Shown here: piece after piece, positions 2,867 to 18,279 of the stretch
Layout: every line of letters starts with the position of its first letter
Numbering within the stretch: the first letter of the stretch is position 1
Source of the DNA: an uncultured Aquimarina sp.
GTDB lineage: Bacteria > Bacteroidota > Bacteroidia > Flavobacteriales > Flavobacteriaceae
Length of the DNA stretch: 64,000 bases
Assembly: GCA_947495425.1 (NCBI GenBank)
Contig: CANLYR010000005.1
Coordinates: 1-64,000, forward strand
Reading direction: 5' to 3'
Translations under genes and position numbers: made by a program
Notes under the pieces: model-generated
Told to the model about the DNA's origin: nothing
Database searches by the model: none
Seen by the model: only the letters and a program-made list of their open reading frames with translations

Positions 2867-2882
2867 ACTAATGTTCGTTAGT
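2867..2882. promoter_or_regulatory. Putative TetR-type operator upstream of the E2 gene
   Basis: The sequence is ACTAATGTTCGTTAGT (minus strand ACTAACGAACATTAGT), an imperfect palindrome whose nearest base is 9 bp from the E2 start codon. It matches the palindrome before paaE (ACTAACGATTGTTAGT) at most positions, with identical half-sites. Binding by the paa TetR-family regulator is an inference. Confidence 0.55.
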
Positions 2883-2898
2883 TTAATATATAAATAAT

Positions 2899-3684
2899 TT
2901 ACGATAAAATTATTTCTCTTTTTCTTAATGTATTGCTAATACTATCCCATAGTTTTAATCGCTCCTCCAAAGCGATTTTACTATACTTCAAGGCTTCATT
3001 CCACTTTTCATTATCATTACCACATAGATTTTCCAACATTTTTAGGCTCACAGGTCCATGTTCATCACCATCTAACTCAATATGTCGCTCTAAATAATAG
3101 ATTAGTTTCCTTAGTGTAGCATCACTATTTTTTTCCAAATTTTTAACAATACCTATAAATAAATCCGGAATCAGATCTTCTCTTCCCATGGTAAATACTG
3201 CGGCTGTTATATGTGGTTTTTGTAAATCAATAACATCAAATGTAAAACGCATAAAGTCTTTTACCTCTTCCTTTACGTTGAGTTCTCTAAGGCTCTCTTT
3301 TAGAGCAATCCCCTGAGAAAGATTTTTTAGCAAATTTTCAATCTGAGTAGTATCTGCTTTAATCTCGATCATCGCTTCGATATACATTTCATAATGACTC
3401 ATAGGCTTTCCACCTTCATTACTATCACTTTCTTCACCAAGAACAATTTCATTTATAAATCTACTGATCTCAGGATCTTTTGCAGGTATCCACGGAGTCT
3501 TTATTGTTGTAACATGTAGTTGTAAGCTTTTTAACAATGACATAAAATCCCAAACTGCAAATACGTGATATTGCATAAAAGTTTGAACGTCTTTAATCTC
3601 TTCTATTTGACCATATAAGGAATGGGTAACCACCTTTTCCCTAATTGGTTGTAATTCATGAACTAGCAATTCAATTTTGGTCAT
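2899..3684 (-). CDS. DUF3050 family protein (heme-oxygenase-like fold)
   Basis: The 262-aa protein matches the DUF3050 family, all-helical proteins related to the heme oxygenase/TenA fold whose function is not established. Visible signatures are the N-terminal LVHELQPIREKVVTHSLYGQI and VFAVWDFMSLLKSLQ, and the C-terminal RHIELDGDEHGP, where Glu and His residues could bind metal. I chose the start MTKIELL at 3684, five bases after the paaY stop codon. The longer frame would overlap paaY by 35 codons. It is probably co-transcribed with paaY. The family is recognised; a link to phenylacetate metabolism is only positional. Confidence 0.82.
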   Translation of the reverse strand: MTKIELLVHELQPIREKVVTHSLYGQIEEIKDVQTFMQYHVFAVWDFMSLLKSLQLHVTTIKTPWIPAKDPEISRFINEIVLGEESDSNEGGKPMSHYEMYIEAMIEIKADTTQIENLLKNLSQGIALKESLRELNVKEEVKDFMRFTFDVIDLQKPHITAAVFTMGREDLIPDLFIGIVKNLEKNSDATLRKLIYYLERHIELDGDEHGPVSLKMLENLCGNDNEKWNEALKYSKIALEERLKLWDSISNTLRKREIILS

Positions 3685-3688
3685 TCTA

Positions 3689-4285
3689 TTATCTTTTTTT
3701 AAAGTCTTCCAAGGTCTTATAAAAGGCCTCCTGCATAGGTCTATCTTTTGGTATTTCTCGCAGTGGTTGTACTTCTTGTAAGGATTCAAAACAATCTGCC
3801 GGTAATTGCTGATACAGTTTAGTTCCCTTTGTTTTCCAAGCTATCATTTCGTCACTTACCGCTTTAATCACTTCAGCTGGATTGCCAACAATTAAACTTC
3901 GTTTTTGAAAAACTGAATTTGCTTTTACAAAAGACATTGCGCCTACGATACATTCATCTCCAATTTCTGCATCATCCATAATCACAGTATTCATACCAAT
4001 TAAGCAATTTCGTCCCAGATTTGCACCATGTATTACGGCTCCGTGACCTACATGAGCGCCTTCTTTGAGGACTATCGACTTACCTGGAAACATATGTACT
4101 GTGCAATTTTCTTGCACATTGACTCCATTTTCAAGGATAATTTCGCCCCAATCCCCTCGAATTGCAGCTCCTGGCCCAATGTAACAGTTTTCACCAATAA
4201 TCACATTACCGGTCACCGCGGCAAGAGGATGCACGAAACTACTTTCGTGTATTACGGGTATATATCCTTTGAAACTGTAAATCAT
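3689..4285 (-). CDS. paaY: PaaY, gamma-carbonic-anhydrase-like thioesterase
   Basis: This 198-aa left-handed beta-helix protein has hexapeptide repeats and the three metal-binding histidines expected of the gamma carbonic anhydrase fold (TVHMF, HVGHG, VIHGA). The C-terminal block W-K-x-K-G-T-x-x-Y-Q and the ending EVQPLREIPKDR match PaaY rather than generic YrdA proteins. In phenylacetate pathways PaaY hydrolyses dead-end CoA esters formed when ring cleavage stalls. The DUF3050 gene follows five bases after. A ~100-bp repeat fills the gap on its 5' side. Confidence 0.88.
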   Translation of the reverse strand: MIYSFKGYIPVIHESSFVHPLAAVTGNVIIGENCYIGPGAAIRGDWGEIILENGVNVQENCTVHMFPGKSIVLKEGAHVGHGAVIHGANLGRNCLIGMNTVIMDDAEIGDECIVGAMSFVKANSVFQKRSLIVGNPAEVIKAVSDEMIAWKTKGTKLYQQLPADCFESLQEVQPLREIPKDRPMQEAFYKTLEDFKKR

Positions 4286-4382
4286 ATTTAAATACTAAAT
4301 TGTAAATGATAAATGTAAAAGTTTAAAGTTTTTACAACTCTTCTTAACTACTTTTACATTTTAAATTTTTCAGTTTTATATT
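4286..4382. repeat. ~100-bp AT-rich inverted-repeat element, copy 1
   Basis: It fills the whole gap between the paaY start codon and the end of the four-helix-bundle pseudogene. It contains AAATGTAAAAG (4311-4321) and its exact inverse CTTTTACATTT (4351-4361), then ATTTTTCAGTTTTATATTTT. The same plan and nearly the same length occur at 10323-10420 and 12675-12774. All three abut the start codon of the next minus-strand gene. Confidence 0.7.
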
Positions 4383-4745
4383 TTATTTCATTTTTGATGT
4401 TTTAATACTACTTGCGAAAATTGCAACCAATTCTTTACATTCTTGAGCTATCTTATCAAATTCATCAGAATCTCGAATTAATCGAGCCTCTTTTCATACT
4501 TGTAAATTAACTTGTGATTCTCTCAACTCTTTAAGACATATTTTCATTTTGTGAATGAAATCTCGTCTTGATTCTGCGCTTTGTGCCTCTCCGTAATTTA
4601 ATGCTGAAGAAGTTGAGGAACGTATTAATTGTTTTACTAAATGTTCTGAAGCAAAGTTCTTATTCAAACCACTTGTGTTAAAAATTATACTTGCAGAAAA
4701 CTTAACAAGTCTTTCTTGCAGATCGTATTTTTGATTTAATTTCAT
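4383..4745 (-). pseudogene. Four-helix-bundle (S23/IVS-type) protein, nonsense mutated
   Basis: Residues 1-83 (KLNQKYDLQERLVKF ... RRDFIHKMKICLKELRESQVNLQV) fit the four-helix-bundle family first known from 23S rRNA intervening sequences and common as solitary genes in Bacteroidota. A TGA at 4494-4496 interrupts it. The same frame then continues with KEARLIRDSDEFDKIAQECKELVAIFASSIKTSKMK and a normal TAA, which restores the usual length of about 120 residues. The gene is therefore probably inactivated by one substitution, unless the base is a sequencing error. The function of intact members is unknown. Confidence 0.75.
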
Positions 4746-4767
4746 CTTTGAACTTTATACACTCATT

Positions 4768-5520
4768 TTACATAAACCGCTTCAATGTCTCTTTTGTAAA
4801 TCCACTCAGCGCCAATCTTCCACTAATTACAGCTCTATCGGCCAAGAGTGTATCCCAATGTTCTGTTCCTTCCCAAAATACTTTTTTCATATCCTTCATC
4901 GCCTCTGGATTATAGGTACACAAATGTGCTGCAAAAGCCTTGACTTCTGCATCCAACGTTTCGATATCTTCAAAAACTTTGGTGAATAGTCCTTTATCTC
5001 TCGCCCATTCTGCATCATAAAATGAATTGGCATCAATGGCTATTTGTGTCATGGCTGATAGCCCTATTTTACGTTCTATAGCAGGTCCTACTACAAATGG
5101 ACCGATACCAACATTAAGCTCACTCAGTTTAATCGATGCATATTTTGTAGCCATACAGTAATCTGTGGCTGCTGCAAGACCTACCCCGCCACCAACAGTT
5201 TTTCCTTGTATGCGACCGATCACGAACTTTGGGCATTTGCGCATTGCATTAATTACATTGGCAAAACCAGAGAAAAAGATTTTTCCCGTTTCTGCATCAT
5301 CGATGTTGATTAATTCTTTAAAACTTGCTCCTGCACAAAAGGTTCTGTCCCGTCCACTTTTTAGCACAATTACTTTAATATCATCCTGCGCTCCTGCTTC
5401 TGTAATTGTTTGTGCCAATTTGGACAGAACATCTCCAGGTAATGAATTATGGGCAGGATGAAAAAATTCTATGGTTCCTACTCCGTTTTCTATTTTTATA
5501 TTTACGTATGGGTCACTCAT
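4768..5520 (-). CDS. Enoyl-CoA hydratase/isomerase family protein (PaaF-like role)
   Basis: This is a 250-aa crotonase-fold enzyme. The oxyanion-hole regions are FCAGASFKEL and GKTVGGGVGLAAATD. Of the two catalytic glutamates of classical hydratases, the second is kept (KLSELNVGIG), but the position of the first (GGGVGLA) is glycine. It may therefore be an isomerase or a hydratase using one acid. Its place between paaZ and paaY suggests the 2,3-dehydroadipyl-CoA hydratase step usually done by PaaF, but the sequence does not prove this. I chose the start MSDPYVNIK at 5520, because the preceding seven codons come from a palindromic repeat. Confidence 0.8.
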   Translation of the reverse strand: MSDPYVNIKIENGVGTIEFFHPAHNSLPGDVLSKLAQTITEAGAQDDIKVIVLKSGRDRTFCAGASFKELINIDDAETGKIFFSGFANVINAMRKCPKFVIGRIQGKTVGGGVGLAAATDYCMATKYASIKLSELNVGIGPFVVGPAIERKIGLSAMTQIAIDANSFYDAEWARDKGLFTKVFEDIETLDAEVKAFAAHLCTYNPEAMKDMKKVFWEGTEHWDTLLADRAVISGRLALSGFTKETLKRFM

Positions 5521-5535
5521 CTTATTATTATGTGA

Positions 5536-5554
5536 ATGCACACTTGTTGCGCAT
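5536..5554. repeat. Short palindrome, copy 1 (ATGCRCA-N5-TGCGCAT)
   Basis: ATGCACA-CTTGT-TGCGCAT has 7-bp arms with one mismatch. An inverted near-identical copy lies at 5756-5774. The two bracket a GIY-YIG nuclease remnant. Confidence 0.65.
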
Positions 5555-5564
5555 TCGGTTTTAG

Positions 5565-5714
5565 CTATTCTTTATTGTATTTTGAAAAATCCCAGTTTAA
5601 ACTTAAATCTATCCATTCAGGATTTAGTTCATTGACTTGATTAATCTTCCATTGTTTTTTCCATTTTTTAATGATCTTTTTTTCTAATTGCAATTCTAAT
5701 ACTCGGATGCTTCT
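5565..5714 (-). pseudogene. GIY-YIG nuclease C-terminal remnant
   Basis: No ATG-initiated frame is called here, but an open 49-codon minus-strand frame ends at TAG (5565-5567). It reads LELQLEKKIIKKWKKQWK followed by INQVNELNPEWIDLS. This is the typical C-terminal end of the small single-domain GIY-YIG proteins of Bacteroidota, whose usual form is like REKQIKKWKR...NPEWKDL. The catalytic GIY and YIG part is missing, and a stop codon lies upstream at 5715-5717. It is a decayed fragment bracketed by two copies of a short palindrome. Confidence 0.75.
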
Positions 5715-5755
5715 TTAAGTATACTAATTCCTTGCTGCTTTAATGTTATACATGC

Positions 5756-5774
5756 ATGCGCAACAGGTGCGCAT
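5756..5774. repeat. Short palindrome, copy 2 (ATGCGCA-ACAGG-TGCGCAT)
   Basis: The 7-bp arms are perfect. It is in inverted orientation to the copy at 5536-5554 and lies 9 bp beyond the paaZ stop codon on its 3' side. Confidence 0.65.
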
Positions 5775-5783
5775 CGACATTAC

Positions 5784-8282
5784 TTAGAGTAATCCAAATT
5801 GCTCAAAATGATGATTTAAATGTTTTCTTTCCAATAAATACCATTCATATTTATTCAATTCTCCGAAAACAATATTTTTCAATAGCGCTTCAGGGTTTTC
5901 TACAAAGTATAATTTATATGCTTCTCTTGCTTCATTAAGTTTAGCAATAGCAGTTTTTAAATCTGCATGTTTTAAATTTTCTAACTCTCCTTTCTTCAGT
6001 AATGGAAACTCTGTATTTTTCGGAAATGGATTATAATTATATAAGCTATTATGTACTTTCTCTAAAATCTTTTCTGGAGTTGCAATATCAAAATTCTGTA
6101 GTTCACCTGAAGCTATTTTGTAAGTATATTCCAAATGTTCTACCATATGTTGTGGTGTCATTATTCCCCATTTGGTTTTAGTATTAGTAGTTAGTTTGTA
6201 TAAACATTGCTGTATTCGCTCTTCAGTCATTTCAACCAGAGTTGTTTGTTTTTTCTGCACCATAGTCAGAATAGTAGCAATCGCTACTAATTCATCTTCT
6301 ATGTCAAATACTTCAACAAACCATTTTACAATTCCGCTTGGATGTTCTGCACTTGCAACATCACGATCCACTTTTTGCTTACACGTTAGTCTAACGTATA
6401 CGGTATCATTATGATAAATCGGTCTCAAGAATCGACATTCTTCTAATCCATAATTAGCGGCTACAGGTCCTTTGTTAGGATATACAAATAATCCTGCTGC
6501 TGCTGCCAGGATAAAATATCCATGTGCAGTGCGTTTTTCAAAAATACTCCCTTCTAAAGACGTGATATCGGTATGGGCGTAGAAATGATCCCAAGTAAGG
6601 TTTGCAAAGTTGATGATATCTGTATCAGTAACTGTACGTTTATGCGTTTTGATAGACATTCCGGGCGCTATATCTTCCCAATGGTATGCAAATGGATGTT
6701 TTTCTGATTCTTTATATGCAGAATTGGCCTGATATATCCCAGTAATCTCTGTGAGTGTCGTTGGTGTACCTTGGATTGCACATCGCTGCATATAATGTTT
6801 TATGCCACGCATACCTCCCATTTCTTCTCCACCACCTGCTCTTCCCGGACCGCCATGAGTTAACATAGGTAATGGAGAACCATGACCTGTACTCTGTTTC
6901 GCATTTTCTCGGTTTCCGACTAAAATACGTCCATGATGAGAAGCGGCTCCAACAACATATTCTTTAGCTATTTTGTCGTCATAGGTAAAAATCGAAGATA
7001 CTAAAGATCCTTTACCCATCTGAGATAAAGTAATAGCATCCTCTAAAGTATCATATGGCATTATCGTAGACACAGGACCAAAAGCTTCAATATCATGTAC
7101 CTCTGTATTTTTAAATGGATGATTCTCTCTTAATAAAATTGGAGGCACAAAAGCTCCTTTTTGTGCGTCAGCTCCAATCGTTTCAATTTTATCCAAATTA
7201 CCGTATACCATTTGCGCCGTTTTAGCAATTGCAGTAACATTATTTTTGAAACTTTCTACTTGTTGTTTACTAGCCAAAGCCCCCATTCTTACTGCTTTTA
7301 ATCTTGGATCTCCTATGGTAACTTTATCTAATTGATTACCTAATGCAATCTGTACATCTTCAATCAGATCAGCAGGAACAATAATCCTGCGGATAGCCGT
7401 ACATTTCTGACCAGATTTTACGGTCATTTCTTTCCGTACCTCTTTGATAAACAAATCAAATTCTGGAGTTCCGGGTACAGCATCTTTTCCTAATACTGAA
7501 GCATTAAGAGAATCTGCTTCCATCGTAAATGGCACTGATTCTTCAATCAATCTGGGATGTGCTTTAAGAATTCTACCTGTATGTGCAGAACCTGTAAAAG
7601 TGACCACATCTTGAGATTCGACAGTGTCCAAAATATTTTTAGTCATCCCGCTTAATAATTGCAATGATCCTTCTGGAAGAATTCCTGAATTTATGATCAC
7701 ACGAACCACAGCTTCCGTTAAATATGCTGTTTGTGGTGCTGGTAGTACTACCGCTGGTACTCCTGCCATCCAATTTACTGCGCATTTTTCGAGCATTCCC
7801 CAAATCGGAAAATTAAATGCATTGATATGAACGGCTACTCCTTTTTTAGGAACCAAAATATGATGTGCCATAAAACGCCCACCACGAGAAAGATCAATTG
7901 GATCACCTTCTACATGATACGATTGATTTGGAAATAATTTACGCAATGATGCATTGGCAAATAGGTTTCCGAATCCTCCTTCGATATCGATCCAGCTATC
8001 TACACGAGTAGCACCAGAACGGTAACTCAGCTCATAAAATTCTTCTTTTCGCTTAGTAAGGAAAAATGCTAATTTTTTAAGCATATTACCACGCTGTTGA
8101 AAGGTCATTTTTCGTAAAACTTCTCCTCCTTTAGTTCTACCATATTGTAAGACTTCGGGAATATCTAATCCTTCTGTGGTCGATGCTCCTATAACTTCAC
8201 CAGTAACTGCATCATGCATTACGGTTCCATCGCCTGAACCGGCAACCCATTTCCCATTTATGTAGCTTTCTAATTTTTTCAT
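5784..8282 (-). CDS. paaZ: PaaZ, oxepin-CoA hydrolase / semialdehyde dehydrogenase, with a fused DUF1569 domain
   Basis: PaaZ opens the oxepin-CoA ring and oxidises the resulting aldehyde with NADP. Residues 1 to about 520 form an aldehyde dehydrogenase domain with the general-base Glu in FTMEADSLNASVL and the catalytic Cys in SGQKCTAIRR. About 540-675 is a MaoC-like (R)-hydratase hotdog domain with NLTWDHFYAHTD carrying the catalytic Asp and His. Unusually, about 148 more residues follow (685-832), with MTPQHMVEHLEYT and ERKHLNHHFEQFGLL, which resemble DUF1569 of the DinB metal-binding superfamily. E. coli PaaZ ends near 681. I chose the start MKKLESYINGKW at 8282; the upstream frame lies in a dispersed poly-purine repeat. 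Confidence 0.93.
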   Translation of the reverse strand: MKKLESYINGKWVAGSGDGTVMHDAVTGEVIGASTTEGLDIPEVLQYGRTKGGEVLRKMTFQQRGNMLKKLAFFLTKRKEEFYELSYRSGATRVDSWIDIEGGFGNLFANASLRKLFPNQSYHVEGDPIDLSRGGRFMAHHILVPKKGVAVHINAFNFPIWGMLEKCAVNWMAGVPAVVLPAPQTAYLTEAVVRVIINSGILPEGSLQLLSGMTKNILDTVESQDVVTFTGSAHTGRILKAHPRLIEESVPFTMEADSLNASVLGKDAVPGTPEFDLFIKEVRKEMTVKSGQKCTAIRRIIVPADLIEDVQIALGNQLDKVTIGDPRLKAVRMGALASKQQVESFKNNVTAIAKTAQMVYGNLDKIETIGADAQKGAFVPPILLRENHPFKNTEVHDIEAFGPVSTIMPYDTLEDAITLSQMGKGSLVSSIFTYDDKIAKEYVVGAASHHGRILVGNRENAKQSTGHGSPLPMLTHGGPGRAGGGEEMGGMRGIKHYMQRCAIQGTPTTLTEITGIYQANSAYKESEKHPFAYHWEDIAPGMSIKTHKRTVTDTDIINFANLTWDHFYAHTDITSLEGSIFEKRTAHGYFILAAAAGLFVYPNKGPVAANYGLEECRFLRPIYHNDTVYVRLTCKQKVDRDVASAEHPSGIVKWFVEVFDIEDELVAIATILTMVQKKQTTLVEMTEERIQQCLYKLTTNTKTKWGIMTPQHMVEHLEYTYKIASGELQNFDIATPEKILEKVHNSLYNYNPFPKNTEFPLLKKGELENLKHADLKTAIAKLNEAREAYKLYFVENPEALLKNIVFGELNKYEWYLLERKHLNHHFEQFGLL

Positions 8283-8302
8283 TTTACCGATTTTACATTC
8301 TT

Positions 8303-8329
8303 TTCTTTTTTGCATTGCCAAAAAAAGAA
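8303..8329. repeat. Poly-T/poly-A inverted repeat upstream of paaZ
   Basis: TCTTTTTTG (8304-8312) and CAAAAAAAGA (8319-8328) surround CATTGC. The sequence TTTGGCAATGCAAAAAAG on the minus strand is a motif I associate with recurrent intergenic repeats of Bacteroidota, though I cannot confirm copy number here. It lies in the 232-bp gap before paaZ, in which no gene is visible. Confidence 0.4.
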
Positions 8330-9111: not shown

Positions 9112-9113
9112 AC

Positions 9114-10322
9114 CTAGTTAACTCTTTCAATTATACAAGCATATCCTTGACCAACACCCACACACATTGTGATTAAGGCATAGCGTTTCTTTTGTTCTTG
9201 TAATTCTAGCGCTGCAGAATACGCAATTCTGGTTCCTGTTACTCCTAAGGGGTGTCCTATTGCAATAGATCCTCCATTAGGATTTATTCTTGGGTCATCA
9301 TCTGCCAACCCCCATGCTCTTATACAGGATAATGCTTGAGATGCAAAGGCTTCATTAAGTTCGATTACATCGATATCATTCATGGTGATTCCTGCTTTCT
9401 CTAAGGCTTTATTAGAGGCCTGAACAGGACCAATACCCATAATTCTTGGTGGCACACCTACTACTGCTGAACTTACAATTCTGGCCATAGGATTTAGATT
9501 GTATTTTTGTACTGCTTCTTCTGAAGCAATAATTGTTGCCGCCGCACCATCATTTAGTCCTGAAGAATTCCCAGCAGTTACGCTTCCATCTTTTTTGAAT
9601 GCTGGTCTTAGTTTTCCTAATATTTCTTTAGTAGTGGTTGGTTTTATAAACTCATCATGAGCAAACAGAATCGGGTCTTTTTTTCGTTGCGGAATTTGGA
9701 CTGTTGTAATTTCTTTGGCCAATCTCCCAGATTGTTGCGCTTTGGTAGCTTTCATCTGACTCGAGTAGGCAAAAGCATCTTGGTCTTCTCGCGAAATATC
9801 ATATTTCTCTACTAAATTTTCGGCAGTATTCCCCATACCATCAGTACCGTATAATTCATGCATTTTTTGATTTACAAAACGCCATCCAAAACTAGAATCA
9901 TACATCTTGGCATCATTACCAAATGCTGAGGATGGTTTTGCAACTACATACGGACCACGAGTCATGTTTTCGACTCCGCCAGAGATAAAAAGATCACCAT
10001 CACCAGCTTTGATTGCTCGATTCGCGTGAATAATAGCAGATAATCCTGAACTACACAAACGATTCACGGTCTCTCCTGGAACTGTAAATGGTAAGCCTGC
10101 TAAGAGAGCACACATACGTGCCACATTACGATTATCTTCACCGGCTTGATTTGCACATCCCATAATAACATCATCAAAGGCTTCTTTTGGGATATTAGGA
10201 TGCTTTGCTACTAATTTTTCAATAACTAAAGCGCCTAAATTGTCAGTTCTTACCGTTGATAAAGTTCCTTTATAATTTCCGATTGGAGTTCGTACTCCAT
10301 CTATGATGTATGCTTCTCTCAA
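9114..10322 (-). CDS. paaJ: PaaJ, 3-oxoadipyl-CoA / 3-oxo-5,6-dehydrosuberyl-CoA thiolase
   Basis: This 402-aa thiolase performs two cleavage steps of the phenylacetate pathway, releasing acetyl-CoA and finally succinyl-CoA. The nucleophilic Cys is in NRLCSSGLSA (C90). The catalytic His is in GHPLGVTGTR and the second Cys in TMCVGVGQG. The ending GQGYACIIERVN is typical of PaaJ/PcaF. The HExxH gene follows two bases after, and a ~100-bp repeat touches its start codon. Confidence 0.92.
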   Translation of the reverse strand: MREAYIIDGVRTPIGNYKGTLSTVRTDNLGALVIEKLVAKHPNIPKEAFDDVIMGCANQAGEDNRNVARMCALLAGLPFTVPGETVNRLCSSGLSAIIHANRAIKAGDGDLFISGGVENMTRGPYVVAKPSSAFGNDAKMYDSSFGWRFVNQKMHELYGTDGMGNTAENLVEKYDISREDQDAFAYSSQMKATKAQQSGRLAKEITTVQIPQRKKDPILFAHDEFIKPTTTKEILGKLRPAFKKDGSVTAGNSSGLNDGAAATIIASEEAVQKYNLNPMARIVSSAVVGVPPRIMGIGPVQASNKALEKAGITMNDIDVIELNEAFASQALSCIRAWGLADDDPRINPNGGSIAIGHPLGVTGTRIAYSAALELQEQKKRYALITMCVGVGQGYACIIERVN

Positions 10323-10969: not shown

Positions 10970-11042
10970 CTTAAACTTTATTTTTCTTTTGCCCCCCGCC
11001 TCAATTCTCTTCCAGAGAAAAAAGGAGCTATAAACATTTTTT

Positions 11043-11450
11043 TTATTCCCAATCCTTATTGGTTCTATATACTACGCCTTTGAACAATGCCACGATTTGA
11101 TCTCCGCGTTTCACTTCTACTATATTAAACCCAATTTTGGTTTTAGCAATATCTGTTACTGCCTCTGCGATTAAATAATCACCTTCTTCTAAGGCTTCGA
11201 TATGATTGATTGAAGTCTCTATTGAAACTGCATATTTACCATGTGTATTTGCTGAAAAACCAAAAGCAGTATCTGCTAAACTATAGGATATTCCTCCGTG
11301 TGCCTTACCCATACTGTTAAGCATCTCTTTCCTCACCGTCATTCCTACTTTACAGCTTCCTTTTTCTACCTCGAGAACCTCAATTCCAAGCCATTGACTA
11401 AACTGATCTTGATCTAGCATTTTATGAGGAATTTCTTCTAATTTAATCAT
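11043..11450 (-). CDS. paaI: PaaI, phenylacetyl-CoA-pathway thioesterase
   Basis: This 135-aa hotdog-fold thioesterase hydrolyses ring-hydroxylated or dead-end phenylacetyl-CoA intermediates, freeing CoA. GKAHGGISYSLADTAFGFSAN carries the HGG motif and the catalytic Asp of the PaaI subfamily. Length is normal (E. coli 140 aa). The stop of the dehydrogenase gene is nine bases upstream, consistent with co-transcription. Confidence 0.9.
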   Translation of the reverse strand: MIKLEEIPHKMLDQDQFSQWLGIEVLEVEKGSCKVGMTVRKEMLNSMGKAHGGISYSLADTAFGFSANTHGKYAVSIETSINHIEALEEGDYLIAEAVTDIAKTKIGFNIVEVKRGDQIVALFKGVVYRTNKDWE

Positions 11451-11459
11451 GCTTCAAGA

Positions 11460-12674
11460 TTAGTTATCAGCAACAAGCTTTTGATTAAAAAAATTCTTTT
11501 TCTCTCTCTTCATTTTTCTTAGTAAAGAGCTACATCGATAACGATCTTCATGATATTCATCATAGAGTTTGTCTAATGTACTTACACACCAATCTATTCC
11601 TCTTTCATCTGCCCAGGATAATAATCCTTTTGGATAATTTACGCCTTTGGTCATAGCATTATCAATATCTTCTGCAAACGCGATATTCCAAAATAAGGCA
11701 TCTGCCGCTTCGTTGATAAGCATTACCAATACGCGATCAAAAATGTATTGGGAAATCTCATCTTTGGATACCCTCTCGACTCCGCTCGAGAGGACAGACG
11801 TTTTTTCTACTTTCCTTCCATTTACATCATACTCATAATATCCCTTACCAGATTTCCTCCCTAAATAACCGGCTTCAGACAATCGTTTTTGAGTAAAAGC
11901 GGGTTTGTATCTAGGATCATAATAGAAAGCTTTAAAAACAGTTTCTGTTACGGTATAATTAATATCGTTTCCTATAAAATCCATCAATTCAAAAGGCCCC
12001 ATTCTAAAACCACCAAGTGTTTTCAAACTCCAATCTATGGTCGCTATATCTGCTATACCTTCTTCATAGATTCGTAATGACTCTCCATAAAAAGGTCTGG
12101 CAACACGATTTACAATAAACCCAGGGGTATCTTTTGCTATAGCAACTGTTTTTTTCCAATCTTTGATAATCTGTACTACTTTATTTTTAACTTCTTCTGA
12201 AGTTTGTACTGCTGGAATTACTTCAACAAGCTTCATTAATGGCGCTGGGTTAAAAAAATGGATGCCTATACAACGCTCAGGTTTTTTTAGGGATGAAGCT
12301 ATTGAAGCTATAGACAGTGAAGATGTATTGGATGCAATGATCGTATCTTCAGAAACATAGCTTTCTAATTCTGAAAACAGGTTCTTTTTAATATCTAGAT
12401 TTTCGATAATTGCTTCGATTGTAAGATGGGTATCACTTAAATCTTTCAGAGCATTAACATAGAAAATGTTATGCTGGATACGATCCTTTTCATTTTGATC
12501 GATCCTACCTTTTTCAATTAATCGAGAAAGCACTTTCTCTAAAGCATTCTTACTCTTATCCAATGCTTCCTGATTGGTATCAAACACTTTTACGGTACAA
12601 CCAGAGGTCGCTGCTACCTGTGCAATCCCGCTCCCCATTGTTCCTGATCCTATTATACCTACTTTGTAAATCAT
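11460..12674 (-). CDS. paaH: 3-hydroxyacyl-CoA dehydrogenase (PaaH-like)
   Basis: It oxidises 3-hydroxyadipyl-CoA to 3-oxoadipyl-CoA with NAD. The Rossmann domain begins GIIGSGTMGSGIAQ, the catalytic His is in GIHFFNPAPLMKLVEV, and the paired C-terminal helical domains contain GFIVNRVARP and FRMGPFELMDFIGND. At about residues 292-303 the peptide VLSSGVERVSKDE is encoded by a perfect 8-bp-arm palindrome (11772-11793), apparently an in-frame repeat insertion between the two helical domains. At 404 aa it is shorter than E. coli PaaH (about 475 aa). Confidence 0.88.
   Translation of the reverse strand: MIYKVGIIGSGTMGSGIAQVAATSGCTVKVFDTNQEALDKSKNALEKVLSRLIEKGRIDQNEKDRIQHNIFYVNALKDLSDTHLTIEAIIENLDIKKNLFSELESYVSEDTIIASNTSSLSIASIASSLKKPERCIGIHFFNPAPLMKLVEVIPAVQTSEEVKNKVVQIIKDWKKTVAIAKDTPGFIVNRVARPFYGESLRIYEEGIADIATIDWSLKTLGGFRMGPFELMDFIGNDINYTVTETVFKAFYYDPRYKPAFTQKRLSEAGYLGRKSGKGYYEYDVNGRKVEKTSVLSSGVERVSKDEISQYIFDRVLVMLINEAADALFWNIAFAEDIDNAMTKGVNYPKGLLSWADERGIDWCVSTLDKLYDEYHEDRYRCSSLLRKMKREKKNFFNQKLVADN
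11772..11793. repeat. Palindrome inside the paaH frame
   Basis: CCTCTCGA-CTCCGC-TCGAGAGG, 8-bp perfect arms around a 6-base loop. Relatives with the core TCTCGACTGYGCTCGA occur at 51149-51168 (coding) and 55090-55109 (intergenic). Confidence 0.75.
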
Positions 12675-12774: not shown

Positions 12775-13554
12775 TTACTTCCCTTTAAATTCAGGTTTTC
12801 TTTTTTCTATAAATGCATGTACACCTTCTGAGTAATCTTCACTTTCTGCGGCTTCAATTTGCAAATCTGATTCCAAAGCTAACTGTTGCTCCAAATTATT
12901 TGTCATCGATTGATTTAATAATCTCTTAGTTAAGCCTAAAGCTTTTGTAGGCATTTTTGCAAGTTTTAGTGCTAATTTAGTTACTTCTTCTTCAAAAGTT
13001 TCGACGGGAAATACCTGGTGCAACATCCCAAGTTGCTGCGCTGCCGTAGCGCTTACATTATCCCCTAACATCATTAAAGCTGAAGCTTTTTGAAAACCGA
13101 TCAATCGTGGTAAAAAAAAGGTTCCTGCACTATCAGGAATTAATCCAATTTTACTAAATGCTTGGATAAAACTAGCGTTTTCAACAGCTACCACAACATC
13201 ACAAGCCAAAGCTATATTGGCTCCTGCTCCAGCCGCAACACCGTTTACAGCTGCAATAATGGGTTTTTCTATCGATCGTATCCTTTCTACTATTGGGTTA
13301 TAATGCTCTTCGAGTATTTTTCTAAAGCCGGGATTCAATTCTGGCGAAGTCACTTCATTAAGATCCTGGCCAGCACAAAATGCTTTTCCGTTACCAGTTA
13401 GTACAATAGCTCTTATCTCATTATTATCAGCACAATCATCTAATGTTTTTTGCAAAAGCAAAGCCATTTCTCTATTGAAACTATTAAAAGTTTCCGGACG
13501 ATTTAATGTAACTCTTGCTACTCCGTTTTCAATTTGTAAATCGATTGAAAGCAT
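12775..13554 (-). CDS. paaG: PaaG, 1,2-epoxyphenylacetyl-CoA isomerase
   Basis: This crotonase-family enzyme converts ring-1,2-epoxyphenylacetyl-CoA to the oxepin form. The 259-aa sequence follows E. coli PaaG closely over NSFNREMALLLQ, GKAFCAGQDLNEV, AAVNGVAAGAGANIALACD and FSKIGLIPDSAGTFFLPRL. The Asp of GLIPDSAG is the catalytic acid of PaaG. The gene lies between paaD and paaH and is separated from paaH by a repeat element. Confidence 0.93.
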   Translation of the reverse strand: MLSIDLQIENGVARVTLNRPETFNSFNREMALLLQKTLDDCADNNEIRAIVLTGNGKAFCAGQDLNEVTSPELNPGFRKILEEHYNPIVERIRSIEKPIIAAVNGVAAGAGANIALACDVVVAVENASFIQAFSKIGLIPDSAGTFFLPRLIGFQKASALMMLGDNVSATAAQQLGMLHQVFPVETFEEEVTKLALKLAKMPTKALGLTKRLLNQSMTNNLEQQLALESDLQIEAAESEDYSEGVHAFIEKRKPEFKGK

Positions 13555-13560
13555 ATTTTA

Positions 13561-13655
13561 ATTCTCTAGTTTAAATTCTGGATTACAAATAATCCAATAC
13601 TATTATTTCTTTAGCTCTCTGACCCTTCAACTTCGCTCAGGATGACAGACAATAG
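13561..13655. repeat. Dispersed repeat between paaD and paaG
   Basis: The gap contains GACCCTTCAACTTCGCTCAG then GATGACAGAC (13621-13650). This motif belongs to the same family as CTTCGACAAGCTCAG at 1422. No gene or clear terminator is visible. Confidence 0.5.
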
Positions 13656-14159
13656 TTATTTTAAGCATTTAAAGTAATCAAAAGGTTCCAAACAATCTTC
13701 ACACTGAAATAGTGCCTTGCAAGCTGTAGAACCAAACTGACTTACCATTTTAGTATGTATGGAACCACATTGTGGGCATTTTACTATCTTCTTATTACCA
13801 AGTAAGGCCTCTTTATCAGCTTCTTCATCTAGTGGAGCTGCTATCCCATACTCCTCCAAAGCTTTTCTACCTCTTGGAGTAATCCAATCTGTTGTCCATG
13901 CCGGTGATAGGATCAAATCAACTTCTGCCTTGATATCTTTATCTTTGAATGCTGCGATAATATCATCTCCAATTACATCCATTGCAGGACAGCCACTGTA
14001 TGTTGGTGTTATTTTGATTTGAGCGACATCGTCAACTATCTGGGCATAACGAACCACACCCATATCCATAATAGACAATACGGGAATTTCTGGATCTGAA
14101 ATTTTTTCCAGAATCGAAATAAGTTTTGGGTTGATATGTTGTTCTAGTTCTATTGTCAT
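13656..14159 (-). CDS. paaD: PaaD, epoxidase complex Fe-S/MIP18-like subunit
   Basis: This 167-aa protein has an N-terminal MIP18/DUF59 domain (KISDPEIPVLSIMDMGVVR) and a C-terminal cysteine cluster (CPQCGS, then CKALFQCEDCLEPFDYFKC). PaaD is required for the phenylacetyl-CoA epoxidase, probably for cofactor maturation. I chose the start MTIELEQHINP at 14159; a longer frame would run through the hairpin at 14188-14207. Confidence 0.9.
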   Translation of the reverse strand: MTIELEQHINPKLISILEKISDPEIPVLSIMDMGVVRYAQIVDDVAQIKITPTYSGCPAMDVIGDDIIAAFKDKDIKAEVDLILSPAWTTDWITPRGRKALEEYGIAAPLDEEADKEALLGNKKIVKCPQCGSIHTKMVSQFGSTACKALFQCEDCLEPFDYFKCLK

Positions 14160-14187
14160 TTTATTATAGAGGTACTTAAATAATGAG

Positions 14188-14207
14188 ATTTCCGTCTTCA
14201 CGGAAAT
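14188..14207. repeat. Hairpin repeat between paaC and paaD
   Basis: ATTTCCGT-CTTC-ACGGAAAT has perfect 8-bp arms and a 4-base loop. It is too AT-poor at its 3' side to be a typical terminator and is followed by TGACACAAATG. Similar stem-loops occur at 14989-15002 and 15041-15058. Confidence 0.65.
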
Positions 14208-14225
14208 GACACAAATGAATTTAAC

Positions 14226-14981
14226 TTACCACTCCATATTTGGATAGGTACGTTGCATATATTGTAAATCAGCAAGTAAATACCCCATATGCTCACTATG
14301 AATCCCTTGTTTGCCACCTTTTTGAAACCATTTAGTTTCTGGGATAGTCAAGGTAGCTTCTTCTAATACTTCACCTACTCTTTTGTAATATCGCTCTTTA
14401 AGTTTTGAAACATCAACTCCTATTCCAGATTCAACAGCTACCCTGTCATCTTCAGTCATATGAAATAATTCATCGGTAAATTTCCAAAGATCATCTACTG
14501 CTTCTTGCACCTTATGATGACTCTCTTCTGTACCATCACCCAATCTTTTTATCCAATCTGAAGAAAATCTTTGATGATAGCTCACTTCCTTAATTCCTTT
14601 TTTTGCAATCGCTGTAAGGGTTTCATCAGTACTCTTTTGTAATTCTTGGAGCAATAACAAGTGAAAAACATCATAAAAAAACTGTCTTGTGAGTACATAT
14701 CCAAAATGTCTATTGGGTTGCTCTACGAGTAGTACATTTTTATATTCTCTTTCAATTCTCAAAAAAGCAAGATCGTCTTCGGTCTTCTTATCTCCAGAAA
14801 GCTTTGCTGCATATTGAAAATAACTTCGAATCTGTCCAAATAAGTCTAACGAAATATTAGTTAAAGCTATATCTGTTTCAAGATTTGGTCCATGACCACA
14901 AAGTTCTGACAAACGCTGACCAAGAATCAAGGCATTATCTGCGATACCGTAGATATATTGTATTATATTTTCGTTTTTCAT
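14226..14981 (-). CDS. paaC: PaaC, structural subunit of phenylacetyl-CoA epoxidase
   Basis: This 251-aa ferritin-like four-helix protein is homologous to PaaA but is the non-catalytic partner in the PaaAC heterodimer. Typical stretches are NALILGQRLSELCGHGP, DIALTNISLDLFGQIRSYFQYAA, SYHQRFSSDWIKRLGDGTEESH and the ending MGYLLADLQYMQRTYPNMEW. The pattern and length match E. coli PaaC (248 aa). Confidence 0.92.
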   Translation of the reverse strand: MKNENIIQYIYGIADNALILGQRLSELCGHGPNLETDIALTNISLDLFGQIRSYFQYAAKLSGDKKTEDDLAFLRIEREYKNVLLVEQPNRHFGYVLTRQFFYDVFHLLLLQELQKSTDETLTAIAKKGIKEVSYHQRFSSDWIKRLGDGTEESHHKVQEAVDDLWKFTDELFHMTEDDRVAVESGIGVDVSKLKERYYKRVGEVLEEATLTIPETKWFQKGGKQGIHSEHMGYLLADLQYMQRTYPNMEW

Positions 14982-14988
14982 TGTATTG

Positions 14989-15058
14989 CCCGCGAAAACG
15001 GGTATCTTTTATTTAATAACTTCAATTTCATACATTGAGTTTCCCACTTTCGTGGGAA
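14989..15058. repeat. Two hairpin repeats between paaB and paaC
   Basis: CCCG-CGAAAA-CGGG (14989-15002) and TTCCCAC-TTTC-GTGGGAA (15041-15058, 7-bp perfect arms) occupy the 101-bp gap. They resemble the loop class at 14188. Such stems in the middle of the operon could adjust mRNA stability, but that is inference. Confidence 0.6.
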
Positions 15059-15082
15059 TTGCAAGTATTGCAGTTGCAATAA

Positions 15083-15367
15083 TCACATATGTTTTACCTC
15101 ATCTGGCAATGAGTAGAACGTTGGATGTCGGTATACTTTATCTTGTGCTGGTTCAAAAAGTTCTCCATTATTTTCGGGATTAGAAGCCGTAATATGTTTG
15201 GATTCTACAACCCATATGCTCACGCCTTCGTTTCTACGCGTGTATACATCTCTTGCATTTTTTAATGCCATATCTGCATCTGCAGCATGAAGGCTACCAA
15301 AATGACGATGCTCTAAACCATTTTTGCTACGTACAAACACTTCCCAAAGAGGCCAGTTATTTTTCAT
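15083..15367 (-). CDS. paaB: PaaB, epoxidase accessory subunit
   Basis: This 94-aa protein matches PaaB (E. coli 95 aa), the small subunit that bridges PaaAC heterodimers. WPLWEVFVRSKNGLEHRHFGSLHAADADMALKNARDVYTRR and WVVESKHITAS are characteristic. It lies between paaA and paaC. Confidence 0.93.
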   Translation of the reverse strand: MKNNWPLWEVFVRSKNGLEHRHFGSLHAADADMALKNARDVYTRRNEGVSIWVVESKHITASNPENNGELFEPAQDKVYRHPTFYSLPDEVKHM

Positions 15368-15369
15368 AA

Positions 15370-15412
15370 TTATCAGCCCTCACCCCCAGCCCCTCTCTCA
15401 AAAGGAGAAGGG
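15370..15412. repeat. Dispersed repeat between paaA and paaB
   Basis: The gap reads CAGCCCTCACCCCCAGCCCC then TCTCTCAAAAGGAGAAGGGAG. CTCTC...GAGAAGGGAG forms an imperfect stem. A diverged relative is CCCCTCATCCCAGCCCTCGC near 23391. It has a much higher GC content than its surroundings. Confidence 0.55.
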
Positions 15413-15430
15413 AGTAAGCAAGGAATTTAT

Positions 15431-16435
15431 TTAAATTGCTTTTTTAAGCTTTTTATCTTCTTGTTTTTCGGCGTAAGCCATAGCTGCATCACGCACCCAT
15501 TCTCCTTCTTCCCATGCATTTACGCGTGCAGACAATCTTTCTTTATTACAAGGTCCATGACCTTTTACTACCTGCCAAAATTCATCCCAATTTATTGCTC
15601 CAAAATCATAATGACCCCTCTCATCATTCCACTTTAAATCAGGATCAGGAATCGTTAATCCAATTAGATCTGCTTGTGGTACGGTTTGATCTATAAATTG
15701 CTGACGTAGTTCATCATTAGTTTTACGTTTCAGTTTCCATTTCATGGATTGTTCTGTATGTACAGACTCTGCATCTGTGGGGCCCAACATCATTAATGAA
15801 GGCCACCACCATCGATTTAAAGCATCCTGTGCCATTGCTTTTTGCTCTGGAGTTCCTTGTGCAAGTTTAGTCATGATCTCGAAACCCTGTCGTTGATGAA
15901 AGCTTTCTTCCTTACATACACGTATCATTGCTCTTGCATATGGCCCATATGAAGTACTACAAAGCGGCACTTGATTGATTATAGCCGCACCATCTACCAA
16001 CCATCCAATAGCACCCATATCTGCCCAGGTTGTTGTTGGATAATTAAATATACTAGAATATTTTGCTTTACCTGTATGTAATTGTTCGTACAATTCTTCT
16101 CTTGTAATACCCAAGGTTTCGCATGCGCTGTAGAGGTATAGTCCGTGACCTGCCTCGTCTTGCACTTTTGCCAAAAGTGCTACTTTGCGACGTAACGAAG
16201 GTGCACGAGTAATCCAATTTCCTTCGGGTAACATGCCTACGATTTCAGAATGTGCATGCTGAGAAATTTGTCGAATATGAGTTTTACGATATTTCTCTGG
16301 CATCCAATTTTTGGGCTCAATTTTCTCATCTCTGGCAATTCTTTGCTCAAAAATTTCCTCTAGACTTCGAGTAGCCTCAGCCCTATCGCTTCGAGTAGCC
16401 TCAGTCCCTGTGTTCTTAATTTCTTTTTTACTCAT
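15431..16435 (-). CDS. paaA: PaaA, catalytic diiron subunit of phenylacetyl-CoA epoxidase
   Basis: PaaA carries the diiron centre that inserts one oxygen across the aromatic ring of phenylacetyl-CoA. The two ligand motifs are visible as [15 protein letters not shown] and [12 protein letters not shown]. From [17 protein letters not shown] onward the sequence follows E. coli PaaA. The 334-aa length is about 25 longer than E. coli because of an N-terminal segment that contains TEATRS and AEATRS, encoded by two 16-bp direct repeats. The start was kept at 16435 since no nearer ATG fits better. Confidence 0.95.
16365..16404. repeat. 16-bp direct repeat inside the paaA 5' end
   Basis: CTTCGAGTAGCCTCAG occurs at 16365-16380 and 16389-16404, separated by eight bases. 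It keeps the paaA frame and encodes ATRS twice. It resembles the dispersed CTTCGACAAGCTCAG at 1422. Confidence 0.75.
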
Positions 16436-16498
16436 AACAATTTTATTTTTTCTACTATGAAAATGGGTTCCAAACTACGCCGGAATCACAAAAATGTT

Positions 16499-17572
16499 TT
16501 AAACATCAAAATCAACTACTACTTTTTCGGTTGTTGGAACAGCCTGACAAGAAAGCACTAAACCTTTTGCTACTTCATCTTCTTCTAGTGCATAATTTAC
16601 TTTCATCTCGACGGCACCATCTATGACTTTACATTTGCAGGTGCTGCATACGCCTCCTTTGCATGCAAATGGTAAATCAGCTCCTGCAGCTAAGGCTCCA
16701 TCTAAAATATTATCATAGTCATCATCCATACCAAAGTGAAATTCTTTACCACCATCTATAATCGTTACTTTGGTTCCATCAAACTTTTGCTCTACAGCTT
16801 CTGCAGCTTTAATTTTATCTTCATCTGTGATTCCTGAAAAGAAAAGTTCATAATGAATCTTCTCTTTGGACAATCCGGCAATAACCATTTCGTCTCTAAT
16901 CATGAAAATCATTTCTTCTGGACCACAGATAAAACATTCATCTACATTAGAAACGTCTATTATTTTATCGGTAAGTTCTTTTATTTTTTCTGAAGTAAAT
17001 CTTCCATTAAGCAATGGAATATCACGTTGTTCCTTAGTCAAAAAATAAAATATTTCTAAGCGCCCAAAATATTTGTTTCTAAGCGCCTCAATCTCTTCTT
17101 TAAAGATAATTGATTTAACGTTTCGATTCAAATAAAAAAGCTTAAAAGTGCTATTAGGCTCTGCTGATAAATGTGTTTTTAATATTGACAAAATCGGAGT
17201 TATTCCACTACCCGCAGCAAAAACAATATAATTTTTTGCTTTTGAAGGATTCACTTCTACAAAAAAATCACCCAAAGGTGGCATTATCTCTAAGACATCA
17301 CCTGTTTTTAATACATCATTGGCATAGTTCGAAAATACACCACCATGAATTCGTTTTATAGCGACTTGCCATTTATTTTCTACAGGGCTTGAACATAATG
17401 AATACGACCGCCTTACTTCTTCATTGTTAATAGAAGCCTTTAGTGTAAGGTGTTGTCCTTGTTTATAAAAAAACTGTTCTCTTAATGCTAAAGGAACATC
17501 AAAAGTGATAGATGTACAATCCTTTGTTTCTTTATTAATTTCGGAAACCTGTATGGAATAAAAATCTGTCAT
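16499..17572 (-). CDS. paaE: PaaE, NAD(P)H reductase of the epoxidase
   Basis: This protein passes electrons from NADPH to PaaA. Residues 1-100 are an FAD-binding barrel (RRSYSLCSSP), 105-230 an NAD-binding domain (VFAAGSGITPILSILK, CGPEEMIFMIRDEM) and 260-357 a plant-type 2Fe-2S ferredoxin domain with CKGGVCSTCKCKV plus a distal Cys in LSCQAVP. I prefer the start MTDFYSIQV at 17572. The alternative at 17581 overlaps a 24-bp palindrome. It is the first structural gene after the regulator, with a 93-102 bp spacer carrying the presumed control sites. Confidence 0.92.
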   Translation of the reverse strand: MTDFYSIQVSEINKETKDCTSITFDVPLALREQFFYKQGQHLTLKASINNEEVRRSYSLCSSPVENKWQVAIKRIHGGVFSNYANDVLKTGDVLEIMPPLGDFFVEVNPSKAKNYIVFAAGSGITPILSILKTHLSAEPNSTFKLFYLNRNVKSIIFKEEIEALRNKYFGRLEIFYFLTKEQRDIPLLNGRFTSEKIKELTDKIIDVSNVDECFICGPEEMIFMIRDEMVIAGLSKEKIHYELFFSGITDEDKIKAAEAVEQKFDGTKVTIIDGGKEFHFGMDDDYDNILDGALAAGADLPFACKGGVCSTCKCKVIDGAVEMKVNYALEEDEVAKGLVLSCQAVPTTEKVVVDFDV

Positions 17573-17580
17573 ATACTTCA

Positions 17581-17604
17581 TTTAGCTATAACGTTATAGC
17601 TAAA
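17581..17604. promoter_or_regulatory. Perfect 24-bp palindrome next to the paaE start
   Basis: The half-site is TTTAGCTATAAC followed directly by its exact inverse GTTATAGCTAAA, with no spacer. It touches the upstream candidate start codon of paaE and lies 9 bp before the preferred one. It could be a second operator or a leader stem. Its function is inferred only. Confidence 0.55.
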
Positions 17605-17605
17605 C

Positions 17606-17627
17606 AAAACTAACGATTGTTAGTTTT
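17606..17627. promoter_or_regulatory. Putative TetR-type operator upstream of paaE
   Basis: AAAACTAAC-GATT-GTTAGTTTT has 9-bp perfect arms. The core ACTAACGATTGTTAGT matches the site before the E2 gene at 2867-2882 and, less well, one before the regulator gene at 18257-18272. The position 34-55 bp before the paaE start fits repression of the catabolic operon. Confidence 0.65.
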
Positions 17628-17674
17628 ATACACAAATAAAAATTTGTTAATTTTAAAAAAGTCAGATATCTAAT

Positions 17675-18244
17675 CTACACTACACCCTGAAGTAATACCG
17701 ATACCATATCGTGCTTAAGTATGTCTGCATCTATATCATTTTGTTTTGGATACCATAAATATAGTGTTCTAAGAGTAGAGAGGGTAGAAAATACTATAAT
17801 CTCGATGCTGTAGGCTTTTATCTCAGCTTTATCCACACCCTTTTTTACTATATTTCTAAAACTTTCTTCATAATCATGTCGCATTTGCTCAAAATATTGA
17901 AGATTTTCTTCTTCGAGATGCATCCAGTCGTTATTAAGCGAAGCCAACCCATCGGCATTGCGTAAGGTAACATCGATATGTAAATCTATAATATTTTCTA
18001 GTTTCTGAATTGAACTCACCTCGGAGTTTACTATCCTATTCATACCCGAAGTAAATTCTTCTGCCAAATCAATAATAATTGTAGACAAGATCTCTTGTTT
18101 TGACTGAATATGATTATAAAGGCTCGCAGCTTTAATCCCCATGGATTTCGCTAAGTCCCTCATAGTAACTGCACTATATCCTTTTTCTTTAAAAAGAACT
18201 GAAGCTGCATTAATAATTTCTTGCTTTCGGCTTTCGGTTTTCAT
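17675..18244 (-). CDS. TetR/AcrR family regulator of the paa cluster (PaaR-like)
   Basis: This 189-aa regulator begins MKTESRKQEIINAASVLFKEKGYSAVTMRDLAKSMGIKAASLYNHIQSK, a classical TetR DNA-binding helix-turn-helix. The C-terminal ligand-binding domain resembles those of acyl-CoA-responsive members. It precedes paaE in the same direction. Other bacteria use TetR-type PaaR with phenylacetyl-CoA as inducer, so that role is likely here. I chose the start at 18244 because the ten upstream codons are non-conserved-looking and cover the presumed operator. Confidence 0.88.
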   Translation of the reverse strand: MKTESRKQEIINAASVLFKEKGYSAVTMRDLAKSMGIKAASLYNHIQSKQEILSTIIIDLAEEFTSGMNRIVNSEVSSIQKLENIIDLHIDVTLRNADGLASLNNDWMHLEEENLQYFEQMRHDYEESFRNIVKKGVDKAEIKAYSIEIIVFSTLSTLRTLYLWYPKQNDIDADILKHDMVSVLLQGVV

Positions 18245-18256
18245 TAGATAGCATCT

Positions 18257-18279
18257 ATTAATTTTCGTTACCAAAAATA
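18257..18279 (-). promoter_or_regulatory. Putative autoregulatory site and -7 element of the TetR gene
   Basis: On the minus strand TATTTTTG (18279-18272) fits the Bacteroidota -7 consensus TAnnTTTG. It is followed by GGTAACGAAAATTAAT (18272-18257), which shares TAACGA and the TTA half-site with the operators before paaE and E2. No convincing -33 TTTG at the normal spacing is seen, so the promoter part is weak. Confidence 0.4.

Follow-up and report, generated by a model that had tools for sequence, protein, structure and literature searches.

We analyzed a window of 64,000 bases (bases 1–64000 of contig C5 in a draft genome of 4.77 Mb and 159 contigs), and a scan for relatives of PaaZ identified Aquimarina as the closest named relatives of this genome. 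The window contains a phenylacetate degradation (paa) cluster whose minus strand reads, in order, a TetR-family regulator gene, paaE, paaA, paaB, paaC, paaD, paaG-like, paaH-like and paaI-like genes, a lipoprotein-like gene, paaJ, a small gene, paaZ, an enoyl-CoA hydratase gene, a paaY-like gene, a gene for a DUF3050 protein, the gene of the E2 acyltransferase of a 2-oxoacid dehydrogenase and ilvE (Table 1). The pathway proteins PaaABCDE, G, H, J and Z are all present; PaaE, PaaG and PaaH fall under the equivalog cut-offs of their models. A palindrome precedes both paaE (ACTAACGATTGTTAGT, 17609–17624) and the E2 gene (ACTAATGTTCGTTAGT, 2867–2882), as proposed in an original prediction that linked the paa operon, its regulator and the E2 gene through one operator-like element, and these coordinates were correct.

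Conservation of the element was examined in two sets of relatives. For the genus set, which comprises 61 Aquimarina genomes, the TetR protein was searched for in 110 genomes and the clusters were then fetched. The family set was limited to the best 80 of 563 matches in the scan for PaaZ relatives (1.69 Mb; 28 Aquimarina loci and 52 others), so that it leans toward close relatives; 27 of the 28 Aquimarina loci carry the genus name, and L209 was placed in the genus by similarity only. Several named loci are the same records as genomes of the genus set, and the two sets are accordingly not independent. All counts are raw numbers of loci or genomes regardless of kinship.

The site before paaE was exact in all 45 Aquimarina loci, including the window (L129, in which the match to PaaE began at residue 31, was left out of this count), and in 37 of the 44 non-Aquimarina loci with paaE among the best 80 of 563 matches. 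As for the other seven, L264 has no site, and none was seen in six loci with less than 200 bp of upstream sequence. The palindrome kept before paaE and, in Aquimarina, before E2 reads ACTAAC-N4-RTTAGT. Its mean information per column at paaE was 1.92 bits, compared with 1.10 bits for the 40 columns upstream and 1.26 bits for the 30 columns downstream, which indicates that the flanks are also conserved there.

The surroundings of the paaE site resemble a promoter. TAnnTTTG is the −7 consensus of the flavobacterial sigma-A factor (PMC9723704), and a candidate box of this form covers the right half of the operator at the same register in 42 of the 45 Aquimarina loci. The longer pattern TTG-N20-TAGTTT(T/A)G appears in 43 of 45 aligned leaders of the genus if TAGTTTAG is allowed. 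In the other genera, the −7 box immediately precedes the operator, at one register in 30 of 37 loci and within 25 bp in 32 of 37. In either arrangement, a bound dimer would, judging from these positions, occlude the promoter or the start of transcription. Directly behind the operator, where the paaE leader is predicted to begin, lies a perfect palindrome of 24 nt. The arms of this palindrome covary, with G-U pairs, in 42 of the 45 Aquimarina leaders (L110, L122 and L118 were left out), which suggests an RNA hairpin at the 5΄ end of the paaE transcript; one pair on the loop side is kept in only 18 leaders, and 30 of the 504 pairing cells are G-U and 71 unpaired. Its folding energy is −9.4 kcal/mol, with z values of −3.97 for 29 nt and −1.17 for a 47-nt piece.

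The site before the E2 gene was found with zero or one mismatch in 45 of 46 Aquimarina loci (37 exact and eight with one mismatch; L124, which has no site, was counted as a miss). Its mean information per column was 1.82 bits, compared with 0.47 bits for the 40 columns upstream and 0.96 bits for the 30 columns downstream. This conservation of an inverted repeat of TetR type, common to paaE and E2, argues for the placement of the E2 acyltransferase in the phenylacetate regulon. The original prediction had placed E2 15 kb away; the gene is no outlier, however, but forms part of the tail of the paa cluster, on the same strand. In 42 Aquimarina loci, including the window, the regulator gene, paaE and E2 share a contig and a strand; some of the other loci are split by contig ends. 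A match to E2 at E ≤ 1e-120 was obtained in 60 of the 110 genomes, a number that includes E2 genes outside such clusters.

We considered the possibility that only the paaE palindrome is a PaaR operator and that the E2 element is a look-alike, either an RNA or translation element or the site of another factor. The element mostly abuts the start codon, beginning 23–25 nt before the ATG in 34 of 45 Aquimarina loci. It lacks a promoter box, retains an asymmetric half (ATTAGT) together with a core of AAC, and is absent before E2 in 41 of the 48 loci outside Aquimarina where an E2 gene is visible. Such a role would not readily account for the fact that both half-sites match the paaE operator, that the element lies 33–87 nt from the ATG in 11 of 45 Aquimarina loci, or that it is a perfect palindrome in L122, in which E2 is located 5.8 kb from paaY. 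We therefore regard this explanation as improbable. The seven non-Aquimarina loci with a site before E2 are five with an exact site, L258, and L267 (one mismatch). Among the 41 loci lacking it, the E2 gene starts 2–138 bp from paaY in 30. A canonical promoter at the E2 site was rejected because only 2 of 44 loci showed TAnnTTTG in the vicinity. Nothing from a terminator scan of positions 2400–4400 was used.

We then asked how often such sequences appear elsewhere. The genome scans used the symmetric pattern ACTAAYNNNNRTTAGT and a tighter pattern, ACTAACDAWYRTTAGT, which was drawn up after the sites were known; the exact pattern of the original prediction, NNTAACGANNRTTANT, was not scanned. In the own genome, loose matching produced fewer matches than its reversed counterpart, both with up to three mismatches to the paaE site (32 forward matches versus 49 for the reversed pattern) and with one mismatch to the symmetric pattern (45 versus 120). 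These loose scans were dropped as uninformative; a single genome alone proves little, and the relatives decide. The symmetric pattern is exact at three places in the 4.77 Mb genome, namely the paaE site, the E2 site and G000:C32:19522, and the tighter pattern matches only the paaE and E2 sites, with no match of its reversed control. Across the 61 Aquimarina genomes, the tighter pattern matched in 45, comprising the 44 in which the cluster was found and G053, and its reversed control had no match on both strands in 49 genomes, 1–2 in eleven, and 20 and 14 in G020. In the 80 loci of the family set, 94 exact sites were found, of which 63 precede paaE, 28 precede E2 and three are located elsewhere (in L258 before the E2 start, in L282 before the TetR gene, and in L253 at a contig end, where it was assigned to no gene). 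That the palindromes arose by chance in an AT-rich genome would agree with the loose matches, which are no commoner than their controls, but the conservation seen in 45 Aquimarina loci and in other genera already contradicts this explanation, as does the absence of any reversed-pattern match in 1.69 Mb, and we consider it practically negligible.

Some further sites recur. In nine Aquimarina genomes (L141, L158, L168–L174), ACTAACGTTTGTTAGT lies just after the stop codon of one gene and approximately 330 bp before another, which we take from their sequences to be kbl-like and pheA-like, respectively; the gene context was read in six of these genomes, and the other three have the same flanks. 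In six genomes (L151, L152, L157, L164, L176 and L177), ACTAACATTAGTTAGT appears close after the stop codon of another gene, with the context read for four, and a few Aquimarina genomes carry further single operator-like sites. Because these sites are located at 3΄ ends or scattered, in limited sets of genomes, they were not counted as members of the regulon.

The regulator contains a TetR helix-turn-helix domain (TetR_N, 49.6 bits; TetR_C_24, 65.8 bits), and there was no PaaR model among the 21 matches of the NCBIfam search. Its predicted structure (predicted local distance difference test score 92.8) has a fold similar to those of Thermus PfmR, KstR2, AibR (solved with isovaleryl-CoA) and FadR (with stearoyl-CoA); this likeness to acyl-CoA-bound regulators is a resemblance of a modelled fold and no evidence of the ligand. 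At E ≤ 1e-40, the protein was found in 48 of the 110 genomes, the own genome included, all of the same genus. Outside Aquimarina, it was found in 35 of 52 loci, with identities of 42–64%. The gene lies upstream of paaE on the same strand in these 35 loci and in the 42 Aquimarina loci in which E2 is present as well.

The original prediction contained a third site, at 18257–18272 over the promoter of the TetR gene, and thereby a model in which one TetR protein acts at three sites and regulates itself. The sequence GGTAACGAAAATTAAT is indeed present beside a TATTTTTG box, and an exact site precedes the TetR gene in one Kordia metagenome-assembled genome. The window site has three mismatches to the symmetric consensus and lacks a conserved counterpart: among 48 Aquimarina regions of 250 bp upstream of TetR, including that of the window, none contained a site with zero or one mismatch, and three contained a string with two. 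Autoregulation is therefore unsupported in the genus, and we judge the full three-site model very unlikely. In L115, a site with two mismatches lies 101 bp before its own TetR gene. Because the exact site of the Kordia genome (L282:2004) lies 22 bp before the TetR gene, autoregulation may occur outside Aquimarina.

The positions of the genes and sequence elements are listed in Table 1. The DUF3050 gene between paaY and E2 is present in only part of the Aquimarina loci. A gene for an aromatic amino acid hydroxylase lies near the regulator at 20663–22420 (NF010657, 860.7 bits) and represents a second possible fate of phenylalanine.

Table 1. Genes and sequence elements of the paa cluster and the associated dehydrogenase module
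Feature	Position	Strand	Evidence or remark
ilvE, branched-chain aminotransferase type II	276..1376	-	TIGR01123 333.8 bits, cut-off 250
E2 acyltransferase of 2-oxoacid dehydrogenase	1482..2858	-	lipoyl, E3-binding and catalytic domains
Operator-like site before E2	2867..2882	-	minus-strand ACTAACGAACATTAGT, 8 nt from ATG
DUF3050 protein	2899..3684	-	PF11251
paaY-like	3689..4285	-	TIGR02287 232.7 bits, below cut-off 319.6
Enoyl-CoA hydratase family gene of cluster	4768..5517	-	PF00378; syntenic
paaZ	5784..8282	-	TIGR02278 869 bits, above cut-off
paaJ, 3-oxoadipyl-CoA thiolase	9114..10322	-	NF006551 608.9 bits, cut-off 605
paaI-like thioesterase	11043..11450	-	syntenic; no NCBIfam match at 1e-30; name presumed from sequence and position
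paaH-like	11460..12674	-	TIGR02279 457.8 bits, below cut-off 669.4
paaG-like	12775..13554	-	TIGR02280 319.1 bits, below cut-off 345.15
paaD	13656..14159	-	TIGR02159 above cut-off
paaC	14226..14981	-	TIGR02158 above cut-off
paaB	15083..15367	-	TIGR02157 above cut-off
paaA	15431..16435	-	TIGR02156 above cut-off
paaE	16499..17572	-	TIGR02160 420.6 bits, just below cut-off 420.8
Perfect palindrome at start of predicted paaE leader, possible RNA hairpin	17581..17604	-	24 nt; directly behind operator
Candidate sigma-A -7 box	17605..17612	-	TAGTTTTG; overlaps operator
paaE operator	17609..17624	-	minus-strand reading ACTAACAATCGTTAGT
Candidate upstream promoter element TTG	17633..17635	-	20 bp from -7 box; aligned leaders
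TetR-family regulator, PaaR-like	17678..18244	-	189 amino acids, start ATG 18244; TetR_N and TetR_C_24
Fused E1 gene, own genome	G000:C92:262-2322		outside window; PF00676, PF02779, PF02780

The cluster extends beyond what the original prediction had interpreted, since a module of E2, IlvE and E1 is a member of it. In the relatives, paaY is followed on one strand by E2, often by ilvE, and then by a gene encoding fused alpha and beta chains of E1; in all 19 downstream regions that were fetched, the fused E1 gene was located behind ilvE on the same strand. In the own genome, the contig edge at the start of the window, just past ilvE, and the end of C92, which carries the fused E1 gene, showed no overlap, and the adjacency of ilvE and E1 is accordingly taken from the relatives. 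E1 first surfaced as weak matches to indolepyruvate oxidoreductase (IorA) beside the clusters; it has E1_dh and transketolase domains, and the solved structures related to it belong to pyruvate, 2-oxoisovalerate and other 2-oxoacid dehydrogenases. It was found in 44 of the 61 Aquimarina genomes, which are exactly those in which the cluster was found; for the Aquimarina genomes that lack TetR, E2 and E1, the absence of the cluster was deduced without a search for paaA. It was also found in 46 of the 52 non-Aquimarina loci among the best 80 of 563 matches; of the other six, five (L237, L253, L263, L282, L286) are cut off too early, and L269 has neither E2 nor E1 in its stretch. Another fused E1, at G000:C2, was our first guess as the partner of E2; it was dropped because it lies outside the cluster. 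A scan of five E1 loci of the own genome found no operator within one mismatch, and the 19 downstream regions contained one single-mismatch operator string, approximately 2.5 kb past E1 (L310).

A standard PaaK ligase was not recovered, a point that the original prediction had not foreseen. No protein exceeded the cut-off of the curated PaaK model (646.3 bits, passed in 1 of 14 control genomes) in the 61 Aquimarina genomes, where the best score was 203.3 bits, or in 42 other genomes (L265 was left out), where the best scores were 571.5 bits in Aequorivita sinensis and then 176.8 bits. The best match in the own genome was a partial one of 28.5 bits inside a very long frame, and no full-length PaaK-like match was found there. 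The score of A. sinensis shows that the search is capable of detecting a PaaK from this family, and also that the cut-off is stringent for it. In this species (L275 and L288), the upper paa genes (E, A–D and G) were not detected in the paaZ locus. Another source of aryl-acetyl-CoA is indolepyruvate oxidoreductase; IorA exceeded its cut-off in none of the 61 Aquimarina genomes (best score, 33 bits) and in 2 of 14 controls.

Since the palindrome is shared by the paa genes and E2, one repressor likely controls both. In the simplest account, which we consider somewhat more likely than not, the adjacent PaaR-type TetR protein holds down the paa operon together with a feeder module, E2-IlvE-E1, that replaces PaaK. 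A TetR dimer would bind both operators and would be released by phenylacetyl-CoA, as reported for PaaR of Thermus and Burkholderia. At paaE, where the operator covers part of the −7 box (Aquimarina) or comes right after it (other genera), the bound dimer would stand in the way of RNA polymerase. As no conserved sigma-A box was found at E2 and the site there adjoins the start codon in most loci, we favor a roadblock: transcripts that start at the paa operon would read through into E2 unless the bound repressor halts them; a non-canonical local promoter or an RNA element would be alternatives.

As no standard PaaK ligase was found, we predict that phenylacetyl-CoA is produced by the dehydrogenase, directly from phenylalanine. 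In this scheme, IlvE would convert phenylalanine to phenylpyruvate, and E1 and E2, with a shared E3, would decarboxylate phenylpyruvate to yield phenylacetyl-CoA, a function suggested by the gene context. The product would feed the PaaABCE oxygenase, which attacks the ring, and would simultaneously relieve repression. We lean, by a narrow preference, toward the broader hypothesis that the pathway of Flavobacteriaceae starts not from phenylacetate but from phenylalanine, with a dedicated phenylpyruvate dehydrogenase (fused E1 and E2) and IlvE in the PaaR regulon providing PaaK-free catabolism whose product would also be the inducer.

The main and serious rival to this hypothesis accepts the same operator and regulon; E2-IlvE-E1 would comprise a branched-chain 2-oxoacid dehydrogenase of the ordinary kind and the aminotransferase that goes with it, phenylacetate would be activated by an unrecognized ligase, and co-regulation would reflect joint use of the paa pathway and the breakdown of branched-chain amino acids. 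It is consistent with the score of IlvE above the cut-off for branched-chain aminotransferases, with the 2-oxoisovalerate dehydrogenases among the solved relatives of E1, and with PaaK-like proteins of 148–203 bits in many relatives. Against it stand the absence of the cluster E1 from all 17 Aquimarina genomes in which no cluster was found, while the second fused E1 (G000:C2) is present in 47 of the 61 genomes, and the lack of any full-length PaaK-like match in the own genome. We consider this rival less likely than our scheme, although the strongest of the alternatives.

Several observations weigh against the scheme of a PaaR-controlled phenylpyruvate dehydrogenase. On the regulatory side, most E2 loci outside Aquimarina lack the site and no canonical promoter was recognized at it; the recurrent sites behind kbl and another gene play no part in the proposed model; and three loci (L115, L127 and L128) keep a TetR protein that is 70–79% identical, with no paa genes in the fetched stretch and no match to the tight pattern. 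The regulatory link rests on conservation, and the binding by TetR, its ligand, the mode of action at the E2 site and the substrate are inferred. On the enzymatic side, ilvE was detected in only 25 of the 52 non-Aquimarina loci, IlvE scores as a branched-chain aminotransferase, and E1 and E2 match generic 2-oxoacid dehydrogenases. E1 and the paa genes are physically linked, and their co-occurrence is therefore not independent evidence of function. PaaK-like proteins are present in 29 of 61 Aquimarina genomes (approximately 148–203 bits) and in 18 of 42 others (approximately 159–177 bits), the own genome not being among them, A. sinensis has a near-full PaaK match, and another acyl-CoA synthetase could activate phenylacetate.

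The proposed regulation resembles known systems. In Thermus thermophilus, PaaR (TTHA0973) is a TetR-family repressor of paa genes with the sites CNAACGNNCGTTNG and AACnAACGTTnGTT (PMC6651687); the half-sites CNAAC and GTTNG and their spacing are as in the first published motif (CNAACGNNCGTTNG), from which the paaE and E2 sites differ by one mismatch each when compared by eye. However, Thermus belongs to another phylum, and its regulon includes a phenylacetyl-CoA ligase (TTHA0966; PMC6651687), whereas no ligase over the cut-off was found here and the regulon would reach E2-IlvE-E1. PaaR of Burkholderia cenocepacia is likewise a TetR-type negative regulator, which is freed by a CoA ester of the pathway (compound II, taken as phenylacetyl-CoA) and recognizes a 15-bp inverted repeat between the −10 and −35 elements of several paa promoters (PMC2770484, PMC9493321); its operator has other letters (ACCGACCGGTCGGTT), and PaaK is present there. 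For the enzyme, PglB/PglC of Streptomyces pristinaespiralis, which are pyruvate-dehydrogenase-like, have been suggested to convert phenylpyruvate to phenylacetyl-CoA (PMC7089894). The comparison with this suggested E1-type complex is one of route and not of orthology, and PglB/PglC serve phenylglycine biosynthesis rather than paa catabolism.

A 2026 survey described full-pathway clusters with PaaY and PaaR in Flavobacteriia (PMC13186573), the same association of paa genes, PaaY and PaaR as found here. The survey starts from phenylacetate-CoA ligases, and its main text, in the part available, contains no mention of phenylpyruvate, lipoamide or a dehydrogenase complex; being anchored on ligases, it would miss ligase-free clusters. 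A literature search, conducted mostly at the level of titles and abstracts, found no phenylpyruvate dehydrogenase in a paa cluster and no PaaR operators in Flavobacteriaceae.

The operator, the regulon and the enzyme are all directly testable. If the hypothesis is true, surveys of paa pathways that are anchored on PaaK miss a group of flavobacterial degraders, and the entry substrate of the pathway in these bacteria would be phenylalanine rather than phenylacetate.

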